In this document: one piece after another, positions 3,917-15,600 of the stretch
Numbering within the stretch: the stretch's first letter is position 1
Layout: every line of letters starts with the position of its first letter
Virus record (IMG/VR): IMGVR_UViG_3300020020_000082
Coordinates: 1 to 43,264 of that record
Reading direction: 5' to 3' (one strand)
DNA: 43,264 nucleotides
Source: a virus
Notes under the pieces: generated by a model
Databases searched by the model: none
Told to the model about the DNA's origin: nothing
Seen by the model: only the letters and a program-made list of their open reading frames with translations
Made by a program: the position numbers and the translations under genes

Positions 3917-4110
3917 TGGCGAACTTCCTCGACCCGCAACCACCCAACCAGGGCGTGATCCGCGCCTATGTCCACCCGGCGCGGAAGGATGGCCGGCATC
4001 CGGTGACGTTCGTTTACCCGGTGTCAGGGCGCCGGATCAGGAAGCTGATCCCGGCTGACCGCCTCGACGCCATGACGCGCGGGTACGTGGTGATCCACGT
4101 TCCCGCCTAA
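3916..4110 (+). CDS. Hypothetical early protein, 64 aa
   Basis: Coupled to the membrane peptide by the TGATG overlap. Begins MANFLDPQPPNQGVIRAYV and continues as a basic beta-rich protein (PVTFVYPVSGRRIRKLIPADRL), suggesting a small OB- or SH3-like fold. No known family recognised. Confidence 0.6.
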   Translation: MANFLDPQPPNQGVIRAYVHPARKDGRHPVTFVYPVSGRRIRKLIPADRLDAMTRGYVVIHVPA

Positions 4111-4129
4111 CCCGAAGGAGATCAACCCA

Positions 4130-4864
4130 ATGACCGAGACACGCACGATCCAGACATGGCCGGGAGGCCAGTCGTTTGAGTACCGAGGCGACCCGTTCGG
4201 GCCGGCCGATCAACGCACGTTGCGCGCCGGCCATCGCTCGCACGAAGAGCGGGAAGCGTGGCGCCCAGGCACCGCCGACGAGTGGCGCACGATTCGGATC
4301 GAGCTCCGCGCGGAGCGGTACGCGGATCGGGAGGTGCTCGCGTGCCAGTCGTCCCTTGTGGACGACCTGATCAAGGAGGACCGCGACGGCTTCACCGTGG
4401 ACGACCTGATCAACCTGACGACGGACGCCAGCGACTGGGACGCGGATCGGTGCCGGTCCTGGCTCGGGGATCGGGGGATCGAATGGCCCGACCGGCCCGA
4501 GGAGGATACGCCCTATGTGGTGCGCGCTCTCGCAGAGCCCAGCTACGCCGCCGCGCTAGAGGCCGATCCTGACTCGCACGAGGGCCAATGCTGGGCGGCA
4601 TACCGCGAGGCCGATGACGACGACAGCCCGCGCGGCCACCTGACGGCGCTCCGCGACACTGTCAACGGCGAGAGCGAACAAGCCGAGGTGTACGAGTGGT
4701 GGCTGGTGTCCTCGTGGCTGTGCGGCCAGTTGAAGCAGTCCGGTGAGGTCGTGATCGATAACGACTACGGCTATTGGTGGGGACGGACCTGCACCGGGCA
4801 GGGCTTCATCATGGACGGCACCTTACAGGACATCGCCGCCCGCTACGAACAGGGCGAAGCGTGA
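4130..4864 (+). CDS. Acidic hypothetical protein, 244 aa
   Basis: ATG 4130 is preceded by GAAGGAGA at good spacing. The 244-residue protein is strongly acidic (about residues 140-165 rich in Asp/Glu) and tryptophan-rich near the C terminus (VYEWWLVSSWLCGQL ... YGYWWGR). It opens MTETRTI, like the 5786 gene. No catalytic signature is clear. Acidic early proteins often mimic DNA to block host enzymes, but nothing here proves that. Confidence 0.7.
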   Translation: MTETRTIQTWPGGQSFEYRGDPFGPADQRTLRAGHRSHEEREAWRPGTADEWRTIRIELRAERYADREVLACQSSLVDDLIKEDRDGFTVDDLINLTTDASDWDADRCRSWLGDRGIEWPDRPEEDTPYVVRALAEPSYAAALEADPDSHEGQCWAAYREADDDDSPRGHLTALRDTVNGESEQAEVYEWWLVSSWLCGQLKQSGEVVIDNDYGYWWGRTCTGQGFIMDGTLQDIAARYEQGEA

Positions 4865-5076
4865 CACGGCTGATCGCCGTGCCTGTCGGCGCCCAGGTCG
4901 TCTTTACCTTTCCCGGTCACGTCCTGTTAGGGGACGTGACCGGCTACGTGATCACGCCGCACGGCGCTGTGTATCTGCGCGTGCGGCACTTCAACGGCGA
5001 GCCGTGGCCGGTGTCGCCACGCGCGGCCGCTGTTGAAGTCCTTGAACGCACCTACGAAGGAGGCACGATCCAATGA
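4861..5076 (+). CDS. Small beta-rich protein, 71 aa
   Basis: The start is GTG 4861, overlapping the upstream stop as GTGA. It reads TRLIAVPVGAQVVFTFPGHV, then GDVTGYVITPHGAVYLRVRHF, consistent with a small beta-barrel. The next gene overlaps its stop (ATGA at 5073). Function unknown. Confidence 0.65.
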   Translation: MTRLIAVPVGAQVVFTFPGHVLLGDVTGYVITPHGAVYLRVRHFNGEPWPVSPRAAAVEVLERTYEGGTIQ

Positions 5077-5294
5077 CACGCAAAGACCGCACGAAGCCGA
5101 AACACCCTGCCGCCGTGGAGCTCGGGCGCCTGGGCGGCATCACCAAGAGCCCCAAGCGCGCCGCCGCCAGCCGGCGTAACGGGCACCTGGGCGGAAGGCC
5201 GCGCCAGGACGGGCAACCGCCGCAGCCGCGCGAGAAGCAGATCGCCGCGCGGAAACGCGCGCCGAAACGGCCGGCGTACGACTATGAGTTCTGA
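5073..5294 (+). CDS. Small basic DNA-binding-like protein, 73 aa
   Basis: Coupled by ATGA overlap. It is highly basic and Gly-rich: AAVELGRLGG, SPKRAAASRRNGHLGGRPRQ, then a Lys/Arg tail. The repeated G-x-x-GG / RNGHLGGRPR pattern is seen in many small phage and plasmid proteins presumed to bind nucleic acid. Ten codons overlap the following resolvase gene. No defined role. Confidence 0.65.
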   Translation: MTRKDRTKPKHPAAVELGRLGGITKSPKRAAASRRNGHLGGRPRQDGQPPQPREKQIAARKRAPKRPAYDYEF

Positions 5295-5775
5295 GGCTGG
5301 ATTGATCCTCGCCATCGACCCAGGCCCCACGTACTCGGCGCTCGTGCTCTACGACCGCCGCGCGGGCCTGTGCTCGCACTACGTCACCTTGAACGATTGG
5401 ATCCTGTCCTTCCTGCGCCAGTACGACGCGCACCCGGACGACATGCTCGTCATCGAGCGCATTGCGTCGATGGGTATGGCAGTCGGAGACGAGGTATTTG
5501 AGACGTGCGTGTGGACTGGGCGCTTCTGGCAGGAGTGGCGCCGTCGCGGGCTGCACGTCGCGCGGATGAAACGGATCGACGTGAAGCTGGCCATCTGCGG
5601 CCAGTCGCGCGCCAAGGATGCCAACGTCCGCAAGGCCCTAATCGACCGCTTCGGCGGGCCGACCGCGATCAAGAAAGGCGGGCCGCTCTACAAAGTCTCG
5701 GGTGACGCCTGGGCGGCGCTCGCCGTCGCCGTCGCCTACACCGAACCACACCCACGCGAACTGTCCGAACCGTAA
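5284..5775 (+). CDS. RuvC-like Holliday junction resolvase, 163 aa
   Basis: RNase H-fold endonuclease expected to cleave four-way or branched DNA intermediates in a Mg-dependent way before packaging. Motifs: LAIDPGPTYSALVLYD at the N terminus with D12; MLVIERIASMG with E58; KRIDVKLAICGQSRAKDANV in the middle; GDAWAALAVA with D141. These match the acidic triad of the RuvC family; its length is close to that of bacterial RuvC. Start ATG 5284 overlaps the preceding gene by 11 bases. It fits the replication/recombination set with the primase-helicase and the exonuclease-annealase. Confidence 0.88.
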   Translation: MSSEAGLILAIDPGPTYSALVLYDRRAGLCSHYVTLNDWILSFLRQYDAHPDDMLVIERIASMGMAVGDEVFETCVWTGRFWQEWRRRGLHVARMKRIDVKLAICGQSRAKDANVRKALIDRFGGPTAIKKGGPLYKVSGDAWAALAVAVAYTEPHPRELSEP

Positions 5776-6805: not shown

Positions 6806-8548
6806 ATGCCCTTGAGTTTTCACGAGGTACTGACCCGGTTCGGCCCCTACAAACAGACAGGCAAGGAATACCGCGTCCGGTGCCCCGTGCACGGGGACGA
6901 CACGCCGAGTCTGGACATTGCCGAGGGCAACGTCGGCCCCCTGTTCCAGTGCCGCAGCGCCGGCTGTCAATCCGGCGATATCCTGGCCGCTGTCGGCCTG
7001 ACCTGGGCCGACGTGCTGCCGCAGCACAACGGGCACGTCGAGCACTGGGATCACGTCCACGAGTACCACCGCCGCGACGGGACGCTGATCTACCGCGTCT
7101 ACCGACGCGGCACCGGCAAATCGAAGGTCATTCGCCAGCAAGCCGCCAACGGCGCCTGGACCCTCAAGGGTATCAACCCCGTGCCCTACCGGCTGCCGCA
7201 CCTCCACGGCCCCGTGATCCTCGTGGTCGAAGGCGAGAAGGCCGCAGACGCGCTCTGGCAGCTTGGCTACGAGGCGACGTGCAATTCCGGCGGCGCCGGC
7301 AAGTGGCGCGAATCTGATACCGCCGCACTCAAGGCGGCTGGTATTTCCGGCGTGGTGATTCTCCCCGACAATGACGAGGCCGGGACGGCGCACGCGGCGC
7401 TAGTCGAGGCCAGCGCCAAGGCCGCAGGGCTGACGACCCGCCGCGCCATCCTCCCTGGCTTGCCGCCGTCTGGGGACGCCCACGACTGGCTCCAGGCGCA
7501 CACCGCCGACGACTTTGCCGCCGCCCTGAAGCCGGCGGCGCCCGCCATCCTGCCGGACCTCGCGGACGCCGTAGACGTGGTGGCCGAGGGGCAACACATC
7601 GCCGCGACCGGCATTCAGTACGTGATCGAGGGCATCATCCCTGAATACGGGATGCTCGGGTTCCTCGTCGCCGCCGCGAAGGTGGGCAAGACGACGCTGG
7701 GCCACGCCCTGGCGGCAGCCGTGGCGAACGGTGAGACGTTCCTGGGCCGCGCCGTCACGCAACGCCGCGTCCTGGTGATCGCCGCCGAAGATCCCCCGGA
7801 ATACACCGCCTACCTCGCGCGACATCTCAACGTCCAGCCGGGGCAGATGACGTTCAGCCGCGCGCCGCTCCAGTTGAACGCCGAGGGCCTGGAGCGCATC
7901 TGCAACACCGTGAGGCATGGCGGCTACGGGCTCGTCCTGATCGCGTCCTGGCAAGCCGTGATCCTGGGGCTGGTGAAGGACGAGAACGACAACGCCGGGT
8001 CCGTGGTGGTGGTCGAGCGCGTGAAGCAGGCGACCCGCACGACGGCGATCCCGTGGCTCATCGACGCGCACGCCGGCAAGCGCGAGGATCAAGGCGACGA
8101 GGCCGATCCAACCAAGGCGTTGCGCGGCGCGTCAGCGGCAGCCGGCGCGGCCGATTACCTGCTCAGCCTCCGGTATGCCGATGGGCCGTTCTCCACCAAG
8201 CGGCGGCTCTCTGGGAAGGGGCGGTTCGTCAACCTGGAGCCCATTGGGATCGGCTACGACCTCGCCACAGGCCACTACGACCTGGACGACTCGCTAGACA
8301 AGAAAACGCCCATGATCGAAACGACGTGGCGGCTGATTGTCGAAACTGGCGCGCTGGCGCAGGATTGGGCCGGCGTTGGCGTGATCGCGGTGCGCGCGGG
8401 GCTCTGCGACGACTCGCACAAGCTCACGGGCGGGATTCGGAAAAAGGTGGTCGAGGCCCTGCGCGGGCGCCCAGGCGTGCAGCAGTGGAAGAACGAGGCA
8501 GGGCGCTGGGTCTATCGGGTTGGGGTGGATGACGCGCCGGGTATCTAA
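6806..8548 (+). CDS. Primase-helicase (CHC2 zinc finger, TOPRIM, RecA-like ATPase), 580 aa
   Basis: Bifunctional replication protein that primes and unwinds DNA at the phage fork. The N terminus has a CHC2 zinc finger (C26, H29, C49, C54). The TOPRIM core follows: VILVVEGEKAAD with E142/E144 and VVILPDNDEAG with D188/D190. After a linker, a RecA/RepA-type ATPase has a P-loop-like AAAKVGKTTL (K295), a second block VLVIAAED and a Walker B-like GLVLIASWQ. The C-terminal 100 residues may be a winged-helix region. It resembles primase-AAA fusions in many phages and plasmids. The gene stands alone after a terminator with a strong ribosome binding site. Confidence 0.9.
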   Translation: MPLSFHEVLTRFGPYKQTGKEYRVRCPVHGDDTPSLDIAEGNVGPLFQCRSAGCQSGDILAAVGLTWADVLPQHNGHVEHWDHVHEYHRRDGTLIYRVYRRGTGKSKVIRQQAANGAWTLKGINPVPYRLPHLHGPVILVVEGEKAADALWQLGYEATCNSGGAGKWRESDTAALKAAGISGVVILPDNDEAGTAHAALVEASAKAAGLTTRRAILPGLPPSGDAHDWLQAHTADDFAAALKPAAPAILPDLADAVDVVAEGQHIAATGIQYVIEGIIPEYGMLGFLVAAAKVGKTTLGHALAAAVANGETFLGRAVTQRRVLVIAAEDPPEYTAYLARHLNVQPGQMTFSRAPLQLNAEGLERICNTVRHGGYGLVLIASWQAVILGLVKDENDNAGSVVVVERVKQATRTTAIPWLIDAHAGKREDQGDEADPTKALRGASAAAGAADYLLSLRYADGPFSTKRRLSGKGRFVNLEPIGIGYDLATGHYDLDDSLDKKTPMIETTWRLIVETGALAQDWAGVGVIAVRAGLCDDSHKLTGGIRKKVVEALRGRPGVQQWKNEAGRWVYRVGVDDAPGI

Positions 8549-9753: not shown

Positions 9754-9827
9754 GGAGCGAGGGTAGGGGACGGGGCGGCGATTGTCAACGATTGACAATG
9801 CAATCGCGTGGCGGTAATCTCGGCGCC
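9754..9827. promoter_or_regulatory. Divergent promoters with symmetric operator
   Basis: ATTGTCAA (9781-9788), CGA, TTGACAAT (9792-9799) is a perfect 8-bp inverted repeat. Rightward, TTGACA (9792-9797), a 17-bp spacer and TAATCT (9815-9820) predict a start at about 9827, with ATG at 9828. Leftward, TTGACA (complement of 9783-9788), a 17-bp spacer and TACCCT (complement of 9760-9765) predict a start at about 9754, with ATG at 9753. Both genes would be leaderless, and a dimer on the palindrome would cover both -35 elements. Confidence 0.8.
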
Positions 9828-10100
9828 ATGACCCCTCCCCACACCGTTGGCTCGATCCTGCACCAGTGGGACGGCTTCGACACCGAGATCAGCGTGTCCG
9901 CCGGGCAAGTGGAAGGCACGATGGAATTGCGGCTGGCGTCCACCGAGGACGGCATCCGCGCCGCGCTCGTGATCATTCTTACCGGCGAACAGTGCCGAGA
10001 CTTGGCCGGCATCTTCAGTACCGCTGCCGCCGTGATTTACCTCTACACCATGCGGAAGCGCGCCCCCGCGCCTCCCGACGACCAGGAGCATCATCAATGA
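9828..10100 (+). CDS. Hypothetical protein, 90 aa, first of recombination operon
   Basis: ATG 9828 is chosen because it coincides with the predicted transcription start; an upstream frame to 9792 would begin inside the operator. The protein has a beta-rich N-terminal half (DTEISVSAGQVEGTMELRL) and a helix (TGEQCRDLAGIFSTAAAVIYL), then a charged tail. Its stop overlaps the start of the exonuclease-annealase gene, so the two are coupled. Function unknown, possibly a partner of that protein. Confidence 0.65.
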   Translation: MTPPHTVGSILHQWDGFDTEISVSAGQVEGTMELRLASTEDGIRAALVIILTGEQCRDLAGIFSTAAAVIYLYTMRKRAPAPPDDQEHHQ

Positions 10101-11791
10101 CGAACGTGTTACTCATCGACCTGCCGAGCATCGTCTACCCGGCGTGGCACATGGCCGCGTCCGATCCGAATCCGAACGCCACCTCCGTCCAGAGCCTCGA
10201 CCGCATTCGTGGGCTGGCGCACGGGCAGACGCACGTCGCCATCGCCTGCGATAGCAAGCGCAGTGTGCGCCGGGACAAAGACCCGACCTACAAGGCGAAC
10301 CGCAAGGTCGAGGACCGCGCGCCGCTCTACCACCAGATGGATCTGGTGACGGACGCGCTCAAGGCGGAAGGCTTCCCGATCTGGAGCATCGAGGGATTCG
10401 AGGCCGATGACATCATCGCGTCAGCGGTGCGGCGGGCGCTCCTGGCGCCGAACGTCACGGTGCAGATCGTGAGCGCCGACAAGGATCTGCTCGCCCTGGT
10501 GAACGAGCGCGTGACGCTGAAGTCGCTGAAGGATGGCTCGACCATCGACGCGGCGGTCGTGCTGCAAAAGTTCGGCGTGCGGCCCGATCAGATTCCCGAC
10601 TACCTGTGCCTCGTGGGCGACGCCTCCGACAACATCAAGGGCGCCGACAAGATCGGCCCCGTGACCGCCGTGAAGCTCCTGGGTACCTACGGCAGCCTGG
10701 ACGGGGTCTACACCGCCTGGGGCGCCGACGCCGGCCAGTTCGCCCCGGCCGTGTCCGCGTCCCTGGGCGCCTTCCTGTCGCGGGCGGATGACGTGATGGA
10801 ATTGATTCGCCTGCGCGCGGATCTCCCGATTCCTTTCGAGGACATTGCCGTGGAACGACCGCAACCGCTGTTTGACGTGCCCGCCGATTCGGGCTTCGCG
10901 TTCGATGCCGATCCGACCGGCCTGCCGGCGCCGGCCACGCCGCCGGCCACCGACGCGGAGCTCGCGCCGTATCGCGCCCAGATCGAGAAGTCTGCGGAAG
11001 CCGCGCACGCGGTGCCGCTCCTGCCCGAGGCGCCCCCGCCGGCCCCTGCACGCCGCGTGCGTCAGCCGAAGCCGCCGGCCGTGGAGTCCACGCCGCGCGT
11101 CACGGTGGAGGAAATGAAGGCGATGCAGGCCGAGGCCGCGAAGCCTGCGCCCGTGCCCGAGAGCCATCCGGCGCCACAGAAGCCTATCGAGGTGATCGTG
11201 GACGAGGCCGCGAAGCGGCTGGAGGCGAAGCCTGCGCCCGAGGAACAGCGCCGGAAGCAGCCCGAGCCGACGACGGCGCTGGTGCCCCAGGTGATCGACG
11301 CGGACTACTCGCGGCAGTTGGAGCCGCGCTCGATCTCTGAGGCGCAAACGATCTCCAAGTGGGCGCTCGACTCGCACCTGTTCGGTTCCTACGGGAGCGC
11401 GCAGGCGATCATGATGACGATCATGGCGGGCCGCGAGATGGGCATGGCGACCATGCACAGCCTCCGCGCCTTCCACGTCATCGACAGCAAGCCGGTCCTG
11501 GCGGCTGACGCGATCCGCGCGCTCGTGATGCGCTCCGGGTTGGTGGAGTATCTGCGCTGCACCGAGCGCACAAACAAGATCGCCACGTTCGCCATCAAGC
11601 GCAAGGGTGACCCGGAAGTGACGCTCTCCTACACCATCGAAGAGGCCCAGGCCGCAGGGCTGGTGCGGCCGGGCAGCGGCTGGGTCAAGAATCCGGCCGA
11701 CCTGCTAGTCGCCCGCGCCGGGGCGAAGATTTGCCGCCTCGTCTGCCCCGATGTGATTCACGGCATCTACGCGCCAGAGGAAATGGAGTAG
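10097..11791 (+). CDS. FEN-type 5'-3' exonuclease fused to RecT-like annealing protein, 564 aa
   Basis: Residues 1 to about 280 match the 5'-nuclease family (T5 FEN, Pol I N-domain): LLIDLPSIVY with D8; CDSKRSVRRDKDPTYKANR with D52; SIEGFEADDIIA with E102/D104/D105; IVSADKDLLALV with D128/D130; LVGDASDNIKGADKIGPVTA with D175/D178 and the helix-hairpin-helix. A Pro/Ala-rich linker (about 285-397) leads to a C-terminal domain (398-564) resembling phage RecT annealing proteins: AQAIMMTIMAGREMGM, VIDSKPVLAADAIRALV, EEAQAAGLV, and GIYAPEEME. The frame is uninterrupted. One chain would supply both resection and annealing, normally two proteins (Exo/Beta, RecE/RecT). Start ATG 10097 overlaps the previous stop. 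Confidence 0.85.
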   Translation: MTNVLLIDLPSIVYPAWHMAASDPNPNATSVQSLDRIRGLAHGQTHVAIACDSKRSVRRDKDPTYKANRKVEDRAPLYHQMDLVTDALKAEGFPIWSIEGFEADDIIASAVRRALLAPNVTVQIVSADKDLLALVNERVTLKSLKDGSTIDAAVVLQKFGVRPDQIPDYLCLVGDASDNIKGADKIGPVTAVKLLGTYGSLDGVYTAWGADAGQFAPAVSASLGAFLSRADDVMELIRLRADLPIPFEDIAVERPQPLFDVPADSGFAFDADPTGLPAPATPPATDAELAPYRAQIEKSAEAAHAVPLLPEAPPPAPARRVRQPKPPAVESTPRVTVEEMKAMQAEAAKPAPVPESHPAPQKPIEVIVDEAAKRLEAKPAPEEQRRKQPEPTTALVPQVIDADYSRQLEPRSISEAQTISKWALDSHLFGSYGSAQAIMMTIMAGREMGMATMHSLRAFHVIDSKPVLAADAIRALVMRSGLVEYLRCTERTNKIATFAIKRKGDPEVTLSYTIEEAQAAGLVRPGSGWVKNPADLLVARAGAKICRLVCPDVIHGIYAPEEME

Positions 11792-11793
11792 CG

Positions 11794-12318
11794 ATGGCCA
11801 CCGGAGACGACGCAATCCGCCTGCTGCAACAGATCGACGCAAAACTCGGCATCCTGGTGGGCCTGCTGTCGATGCAGCAGGCCCACCCGGTTCCGGCGCC
11901 GCCGCCGAACCCGTGGAATGGCCCGCCGGTGTCGCCGCACACGCCGAGGCAGGCACAGCCCGAGCCGCCGCGCGTGGCGTCAGACTTCGACCTGGACGGG
12001 AAGTTTGGCGACCCGGAAGTGCGGGCGAAGTCGCCGCGCGACTGGACCGGGCCGACGATGGCCGGCAAGCACTTCAGCGAGTGCCCGCCGGAATACCTCG
12101 ACCTTGTCGCGGAGCGCCTGGAGTATTTCGCCGGCCAGAACGACCTGGACCCCAGCCAGGAGATGAAGGACAAGGCCCGGTGGAACCGCCTGGACGCGAG
12201 CCGCGCCAGGGGCTGGGCCGCGCGCATTCGCGCCGGCTACACGCCGAGGCCGCGCCAGGACGCGGCGCCGATGGAGGCGGGCGACCCTGGGCCGTTCACG
12301 GACGAGATCCCTTTCTGA
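11794..12318 (+). CDS. Conserved recombination-region protein, 174 aa
   Basis: ATG 11794 lies two bases after the upstream stop and is preceded by GGAG. After a helical start (DDAIRLLQQIDAKLGIL) and a Pro-rich stretch, it contains DGKFGDPEVRAKSPRDW, GPTMAGKHFSECPPEYLD, and DASRARGWAARIRAGY, a signature I recognise from uncharacterised phage proteins often near recombination genes. It is possibly single-strand DNA-associated, given the acidic C-terminal tail ending DEIPF (as in SSB tails, DxxIPF). That resemblance is inference only. Confidence 0.75.
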   Translation: MATGDDAIRLLQQIDAKLGILVGLLSMQQAHPVPAPPPNPWNGPPVSPHTPRQAQPEPPRVASDFDLDGKFGDPEVRAKSPRDWTGPTMAGKHFSECPPEYLDLVAERLEYFAGQNDLDPSQEMKDKARWNRLDASRARGWAARIRAGYTPRPRQDAAPMEAGDPGPFTDEIPF

Positions 12319-14976: not shown

Positions 14977-15600
14977 ATGCACAGATTTGTCGTCCCCGCC
15001 CTGCTCGTCTTTCTCGCCCTGACCGGCCGCGCGCAGGCCGCGCCGGTGTTCGTGACCGGCAACGAGTGCCCGTCCGATGCCCAGATGGGCGGGCTCACCC
15101 GGCAGTACTACGTGACCGAGGCCACGCACTGCCTCTACGACGGCGACCAGAACCTGACCGGCACCCAGGCCGACGCCGACGAGTTCCTGAACGACGCCAG
15201 CGGCGTGCCTGCGGCCTGGGGTGATGAGTGGACGGGGCTCAACGAGAGCCCGGCGGGCTTCTCGTTCACGACCGACGCGGGCAACGATGACGGCACGTTC
15301 ACCATCAGCGCCGCGCTGGCGGGGATGTATGACCAGTTCGCGGTGGGTATCAAGGACGGAGCCACGCCGAAGTGGGCGCTGTTCCTGCTGCCCGAGGGCA
15401 CGACGTTCGGACACTGGGGCTTCAGCACGAACGGCGGCGACCTGTCGCACTTCTTCGTGTTCGGCCACGACACCGACAATCCACCCCCGCCGCCTCCGCC
15501 TCCGCCGCCTCCCCCGCCGCCGCCGGGCGTGCCGGAACCGTTCTCGCTGTCGCTCCTGGGCCTGGGGCTCGCGGGCCTCGCGTATCGTCGTCGCCGTTAA
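14977..15600 (+). CDS. Secreted PEP-CTERM protein, 207 aa
   Basis: Has a Sec signal peptide (MHRFVVPALLVFLALTGRAQA, cleavage after about residue 21) and an extracellular domain (about 22-168) rich in Asp, Gly and aromatics with two cysteines near the N terminus. There follow a run of 15 prolines (169-183) and a canonical PEP-CTERM tail: VPEP (185-188), a hydrophobic span (SLSLLGLGLAGLA) and terminal RRRR. In bacteria, exosortase cleaves this tail and delivers the protein to the cell surface or exopolysaccharide matrix. No exosortase is present here, so the host would supply it. ATG 14977 follows AAGGAG. It sits at the end of the rightward operon, not with virion genes, so it probably remodels the infected cell surface. 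Confidence 0.88.
   Translation: MHRFVVPALLVFLALTGRAQAAPVFVTGNECPSDAQMGGLTRQYYVTEATHCLYDGDQNLTGTQADADEFLNDASGVPAAWGDEWTGLNESPAGFSFTTDAGNDDGTFTISAALAGMYDQFAVGIKDGATPKWALFLLPEGTTFGHWGFSTNGGDLSHFFVFGHDTDNPPPPPPPPPPPPPPPGVPEPFSLSLLGLGLAGLAYRRRR

Follow-up and report, generated by a model that had tools for sequence, protein, structure and literature searches.

Gene organisation of the locus

The window, i.e. the whole stretch of DNA that was analysed, is an IMG/VR contig of 43,264 bases. At 10097..11791, its plus strand carries a single open frame from ATG to TAG encoding a fused FEN-RecT protein of 564 aa, as assigned from Pfam and PHROG matches. An earlier note on this DNA had described the frame as uninterrupted and this is borne out by its codon bias, which is strong and continuous, with a GC3 of 0.88-0.90 across the FEN, linker and RecT parts. 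Since GC3 is unbroken across all three parts, the linker is translated sequence and not a read-through gap.

The ATG of the fusion lies in a 4-base overlap with a small upstream gene to which no family was assigned (9792..10100, plus strand), and the downstream gene starts at 11794, 2 bases past the fusion stop codon. Consequently, the fusion gene belongs to a translationally coupled operon. The downstream gene (11794..12318, plus strand) is conserved but unnamed, as its product gave no Pfam or PHROG match, and it is kept downstream of the fusion in at least 17 fused relatives. The C-terminus of its product (-DEIPF) has a sequence resembling an SSB tail, and the relatives' versions have acidic/aromatic C-terminal tips (e.g. 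-DEGQIKW). In one fused relative (L056), the slot after the fusion is occupied by a different protein, ending in DDDIPW.

The N-terminal part is a FEN nuclease domain

Residues 1-253 (10097..10855, plus strand) form a FEN / 5'-3' exonuclease domain on the basis of Pfam matches, fold and conserved residues. The profile search of the N-terminal part, for which a FEN match had been anticipated, matched residues 4-160 to 5_3_exonuc_N (PF02739, E 1.5e-26) and residues 161-253 to 5_3_exonuc (PF01367, E 3e-18), both above cut-off. AlphaFold models this part with confidence (pLDDT mostly 84-97), and the fold obtained matches those of a plastid exonuclease (Z 29) as well as E. coli ExoIX (Z 27.6), FenA (Z 27.0) and T5 D15 (Z 25.2); overall, Z reaches 25-29 against stand-alone FENs compared with 19-21 against PolI chains. 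By sequence, the closest named relatives are the 5'-nuclease domains of PolI.

The full FEN motif series proposed earlier is present in all its nine residues (D8, D52, E102, D104, D105, D128, D130, D175 and D178), which are conserved in 63-64 of the 64 aligned fused proteins. The same degree of conservation was observed for R58, Y65, K66 and R69, among which R58, K66 and R69 are basic arch residues. The scan patterns spanned EGFEADD and SADKDLL, so that invariance within those stretches is partly selected for; D8, D52, D175, D178, R58, Y65, K66 and R69 lie outside the search patterns and their conservation is therefore unbiased by retrieval. D130, D175 and D178 are retained in the window protein as in Taq/PolI and are absent from the aligned E. 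coli Xni/ExoIX. The domain belongs to the FEN / 5'-nuclease superfamily, with a PIN-like fold including an H3TH part and a full two-metal site.

A disordered linker leads to a RecT-like annealase core

The FEN domain is followed by a Pro/Ala/Glu-rich linker of low model confidence (residues 257-402, 10865..11302, plus strand), delimited by AlphaFold pLDDT and alignment. The Pro-rich linker of the earlier note is thus real, and it is predicted to be disordered, with a pLDDT below 50 at residues 256-284 and 303-404. Its length between the profile matches is highly variable among relatives, ranging from 27 to 130 aa. In the linkers of L011-L028, a conserved acidic motif, DEIMQDIEEAMPT, was noticed right after the FEN domain (e.g. 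at residue ~272 of L018), and an SD-like sequence precedes the ATG of the motif. From its sequence, this site is a possible internal start or binding motif. An internal start yielding a separate RecT protein was considered for the family as a whole and is not claimed, the in-frame ATG where the linker begins, with its SD-like sequence, being found in the L011 group and conserved family-wide neither in position nor in presence.

Residues about 403-564 (11303..11788, plus strand) correspond to a RecT/Red-beta-type annealase core. With the window sequence alone, Pfam RecT stayed below cut-off (16 vs 24 bits), hence the assignment relies on comparisons by PHROG, by profile and by fold. Residues 438-564 match PHROG_561 (E 1.6e-18 to 1e-19) and PHROG_4171 (E 6.8e-11), both described as 'RecT-like ssDNA annealing protein'. 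Pfam RecT is matched by 18 of 20 relatives at E<=0.1 (best E 9e-8), and a profile made from 24 relatives retrieves lambda Bet (7ujl) in the PDB with an E of about 3e-6. Modelled with a pLDDT of 86, the C-terminal part displays the annealase core fold, i.e. N-terminal helices, a beta-hairpin, a helix, three strands and helices. Its best match is lambda Red-beta (7ujl; Z 8.6, 134 residues), followed by Listeria RecT (LiRecT; Z 6.8, 145 residues); the Z of about 6 with human Rad52 is at a level where unrelated folds also begin. In all relatives, the core ends 0-12 residues before the C terminus. Sequence profile and modelled fold together place the C-terminal part in the RecT/Red-beta superfamily, in agreement with the RecT-like domain that the earlier note had drawn at residues 398-564 and contrary to the assignment to another family that it had named as grounds for refutation.

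The fusion is conserved among uncultured phages

With the RecT part as query, a first scan returned 12 contigs in which a FEN domain lies in the same ORF, and family-alignment scans brought the number of distinct fused proteins to 63 (93 loci when repeats are included). Their sources are about 58 metagenomes and a single MAG contig of Acidobacteriota (Thermoanaerobaculia). In the aligned fused set, the proteins share from 62% down to about 32% identity with the window protein, and neither half is lost in any of the 63 sequences. Pairwise dN/dS values between near relatives are low in both halves (FEN about 0.14-0.32, RecT 0.01-0.15), indicating that both domains are under purifying selection.

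An artefact, by which an assembly chimera or a frameshift would have joined two genes, was the first concern raised by such a protein, and split RecT and FEN genes do exist in two distant contigs. However, 63 distinct fused sequences from about 58 metagenomes, a codon bias continuous through the linker and purifying selection on both halves all argue against it, and the split forms have RecT followed by FEN, the opposite of the fusion order. The probability of an artefact is consequently taken as practically nil: of the split relatives and sequencing error that the earlier note had foreseen as a way to refute it, the former were found in distant relatives only and the latter is ruled out by the 63 fused sequences, which establish that the fusion in one polypeptide is real and conserved.

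The fused form was found in none of 50,697 deposited phages, where no record spans 80% of the fusion, and in none of 72,556 plasmids; likewise, window positions 1-25000 have no close DNA relatives among deposited phages. This absence from deposited phages may be why the fusion has escaped notice, and no description of a FEN-RecT fusion was found in the papers covered by the literature search. A relative of the window portal is detectable in only 7 of 25 records, window included, showing that the fusion is borne by phages with different heads. Many uncultured bacterial viruses thus encode one chain combining a DNA-end-trimming enzyme with a strand annealer, which suggests a single-chain recombination tool.

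One fused protein (L105:158-1636) lies on the contig binned as Thermoanaerobaculia (Acidobacteriota). The bin is a possible host clue, and the contig may also be a mis-binned phage contig.

Unfused relatives point to an exchanged exonuclease

In most annotated phages inspected, the nearest unfused annealases are separate genes beside a RecE/Cas4/PD-(D/E)XK gene or a plain 'exonuclease' gene. The phages examined include Thermobifida P1312, Propionibacterium B22, Gordonia KimmyK, Microbacterium Blett, Arthrobacter Mufasa8 and Glutamicibacter BIM BV-113 among others; Komagataeibacter phiKX2 and Salinibacter phages are exceptions, with no annotated exonuclease at hand beside the annealase. Metagenomic unfused relatives have a Pfam-confirmed nuclease (DUF3799 in L072 and PDDEXK_1 in L085).

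PD-(D/E)XK families were also searched for in phages with the fusion. YqaJ, PDDEXK_1 and DUF3799 (PF09588, PF12705 and PF12684) were found in 0 of 20 fused records, several of which are partial, and the recovery of PDDEXK_1 and DUF3799 in unfused relatives served as positive control. Another exonuclease of these phages could lie beyond the ends of partial records or be of another family. Because the unfused RecT relatives adjoin PD-(D/E)XK genes and the fused records are devoid of the tested families, the FEN domain appears, from gene content, to have taken the PD-(D/E)XK exonuclease slot and then to have fused to the annealase. With FEN in this slot, the resection position would have passed to another nuclease fold.

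Phylogeny and other FEN-annealase pairings

In the annealase tree, a branch supported at 98-100% separates the annealase halves of the fused proteins from the rest. As they form one clade, the fusion is probably of single origin and old. For the FEN half, a single origin is not upheld: the fused FEN halves form one clade together with L076, L228 and L234 (100/100 support), these three being nested within it, and the AU test against a strict fused-FEN clade gave a borderline p of 0.04, with long branches. In the FEN tree, L076 groups next to fused FEN-RecT proteins (97/98 support), and its nesting suggests an exchange of annealase partner, which is possible but unproven.

The L076 protein (L076:6989-8452) is itself a FEN fused to a different annealase, PHROG_3290 (E 8e-49), thus a second FEN-annealase fusion, seen in one contig only. 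Stand-alone FENs were also found next to annealase genes, either directly after an ERF-type gene (L228:3357-4723; PF04404, PHROG_155) or with a Rad52-family gene upstream (L062:3338-5328 and L063:4879-7780; PF04098, PHROG_1097). In L241 and L232, RecT and FEN are separate neighbouring genes, with RecT preceding FEN, opposite to the fusion order, and in L241 a NinB/Orf-type gene lies between them. Upstream of the split pair, L241:2872-3990 matches PHROG_10477 'exonuclease', yet its sequence is coiled-coil-like. Human fecal contigs with a FEN nearest to that of L241 were rejected as further cases, since their ORFs of about 900 aa are of PolI length and lack RecT. In L234, the FEN ORF (3980-5558) overlaps, in another frame, a PHROG_10048 ORF of unknown function; from the sequence, this arrangement has the appearance of a fusion to a third partner that has been broken or frameshifted.

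These pairings, i.e. RecT fused in 63 proteins, PHROG_3290 fused in L076 and Erf adjacent in L228, with related FENs beside RecT (L241, L232) and beside Rad52 (L062/L063), raise a broader reading that we regard as evenly balanced between true and false. In a large group of uncultured phages, annealase modules would have a distinct FEN lineage as their standard nuclease, which would replace PD-(D/E)XK and pair with several annealase types, the fused chain physically coupling resection or flap trimming to annealing.

Phage context

The window contains P22-type portal, head-closure and ejection-type proteins. The resolvase and the primase-helicase mentioned by the earlier note were both recovered, the former as a Holliday junction resolvase at 5284..5775 (plus strand; PHROG_1770, E 2.9e-17) and the latter at 6806..8548 (plus strand; PHROG_239, E 5.6e-25, and Pfam AAA_25). 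PolA and PolIII-alpha were not found, in a search that covered these two polymerase types. Temperate phages of lambda/P22 type are ordinarily without a polymerase and use that of the host. Polymerase absence being ordinary for phages of such build, to which the P22-type portal points, it is uninformative on the replication mode, and the recombination-driven replication deduced from it earlier is unsupported. Elsewhere in the window, the 207-aa phage protein encoded by 14977-15600 carries a PEP-CTERM sorting signal at its C terminus (PF07589, 24.2 bits, above cut-off). This signal, unusual in a phage, is a sequence-based hint of a Gram-negative exosortase host.

Proposed function

Exonuclease and annealase are co-encoded in the same ORF, as befits a two-component Exo+SSAP system, and the nuclease has a FEN fold instead of the PD-(D/E)XK fold of the lambda Exo/RecE type. 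Since the nuclease is of FEN fold and the PD-(D/E)XK families tested are absent, the fusion would work like that type without being a member of it. From sequence and structural models, we hold with moderate confidence that the fused gene encodes a single-chain, two-component single-strand-annealing recombinase, in which FEN would resect and the RecT core would anneal. We infer catalysis, end resection and annealing, and the coupling of both, for the fused protein as follows. At phage DNA ends, the FEN domain would digest the 5' strand; it could also cut 5' flaps, and the flexible linker would tether it to the annealase. The RecT-like core would then coat the exposed 3' strand and anneal the complementary strand, leading to concatemers, break repair and phage genome recombination. 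The earlier note's idea of one polypeptide generating 3' tails and pairing them is plausible. Being covalently joined to the nuclease, the annealase would find itself at the very strand that the nuclease exposes. Against this reading, rings or filaments might be impeded or changed in their formation if each annealase subunit bears a FEN. By descent, the protein would be an annealase module whose PD-(D/E)XK exonuclease was replaced by FEN, later fused.

Also against the recombinase reading, PolI-type FEN domains work best on nicks and flaps, and resection of free duplex ends has been shown for some phage FEN relatives (T7 gp6), outside the lineage of the window. In the main alternative, which is rather unlikely, the protein would be an annealing-coupled flap trimmer, whose RecT part would anneal strands (or, at the fork, a fragment resembling an oligonucleotide) and whose FEN part would remove 5' flaps or RNA primers as host PolI does after Red, resection being left to another host or phage nuclease. 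The PolI 5'-nuclease domains as closest named relatives and a complete metal site, as flap endonuclease activity would need, are consistent with such a role, as is the Red model, in which post-annealing flap removal is assigned to the PolI flap endonuclease (PMC7496540). On the other hand, FEN occupies the slot where the relatives have a resecting PD-(D/E)XK enzyme, the tested families being found in 0 of 20 fused records. The recombinase reading also has a parallel in lambda, where resection is the task of Exo and binding of the 3' strand that of Red-beta, and where the two proteins form a complex and act in tandem (PMC7496540).

It is improbable, finally, that two unrelated functions share one chain, with FEN serving replication (primer removal, host DNA degradation), RecT serving recombination and the fusion fixing only their co-expression. 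The long, variable and disordered linker, and hence the lack of a conserved rigid interface, would fit this, but there is one fused clade with neither half lost among 63 sequences, FEN is repeatedly paired with other annealase families, and the exonuclease slot appears to have been swapped, all of which speaks for a task shared by the two halves.

If the fused protein is a single-chain recombinase as proposed, a natural exonuclease-annealase in one chain makes the role of physical coupling between resection and annealing directly testable, a question which likewise concerns lambda Exo/Red-beta and RecE/RecT. Recombineering rests on phage recombinases, and the fused protein could supply a one-gene tool for dsDNA recombineering.

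Comparison with known systems

To our knowledge, the exonuclease and annealing jobs are nearly always split between two proteins in other phages. Lambda Red (Exo + Red-beta) and Rac RecE/RecT likewise combine a 5'-3' exonuclease with a RecT/Red-beta annealase, and the Red-beta core has the same fold. These systems, however, consist of two proteins with a PD-(D/E)XK nuclease, lambda Exo being a toroidal trimer, whereas here a nuclease of FEN fold is N-terminal to the annealase in one chain. The nearest unfused annealase relatives, the PHROG_561/4171 proteins of actinophages and Salinibacter phages (29-39% identity), are separate genes with a C-terminal extension, usually beside a PD-(D/E)XK/Cas4/RecE-type exonuclease, whereas the fusion ends near the core.

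On the nuclease side, T5 D15, E. coli ExoIX/Xni, mycobacterial FenA and the PolI 5'-nuclease domain have the same FEN fold, none of them being joined to an annealase, and Xni is without equivalents of D130, D175 and D178, all three of which are present in the window FEN. The fusion would work like the T7 gene 6 exonuclease, a FEN-family 5' exonuclease annotated as required for recombination, whose partner in T7 is a separate OB-fold protein, gp2.5, and not a RecT domain. By analogy, this enzyme is a precedent for a FEN-type resector. The earlier note had stated that known systems keep the two parts separate and use other nuclease folds; FEN 5'-exonucleases in phage recombination are already known from T7 gene 6, and what is new here is the fusion and the pairing of FEN with RecT.
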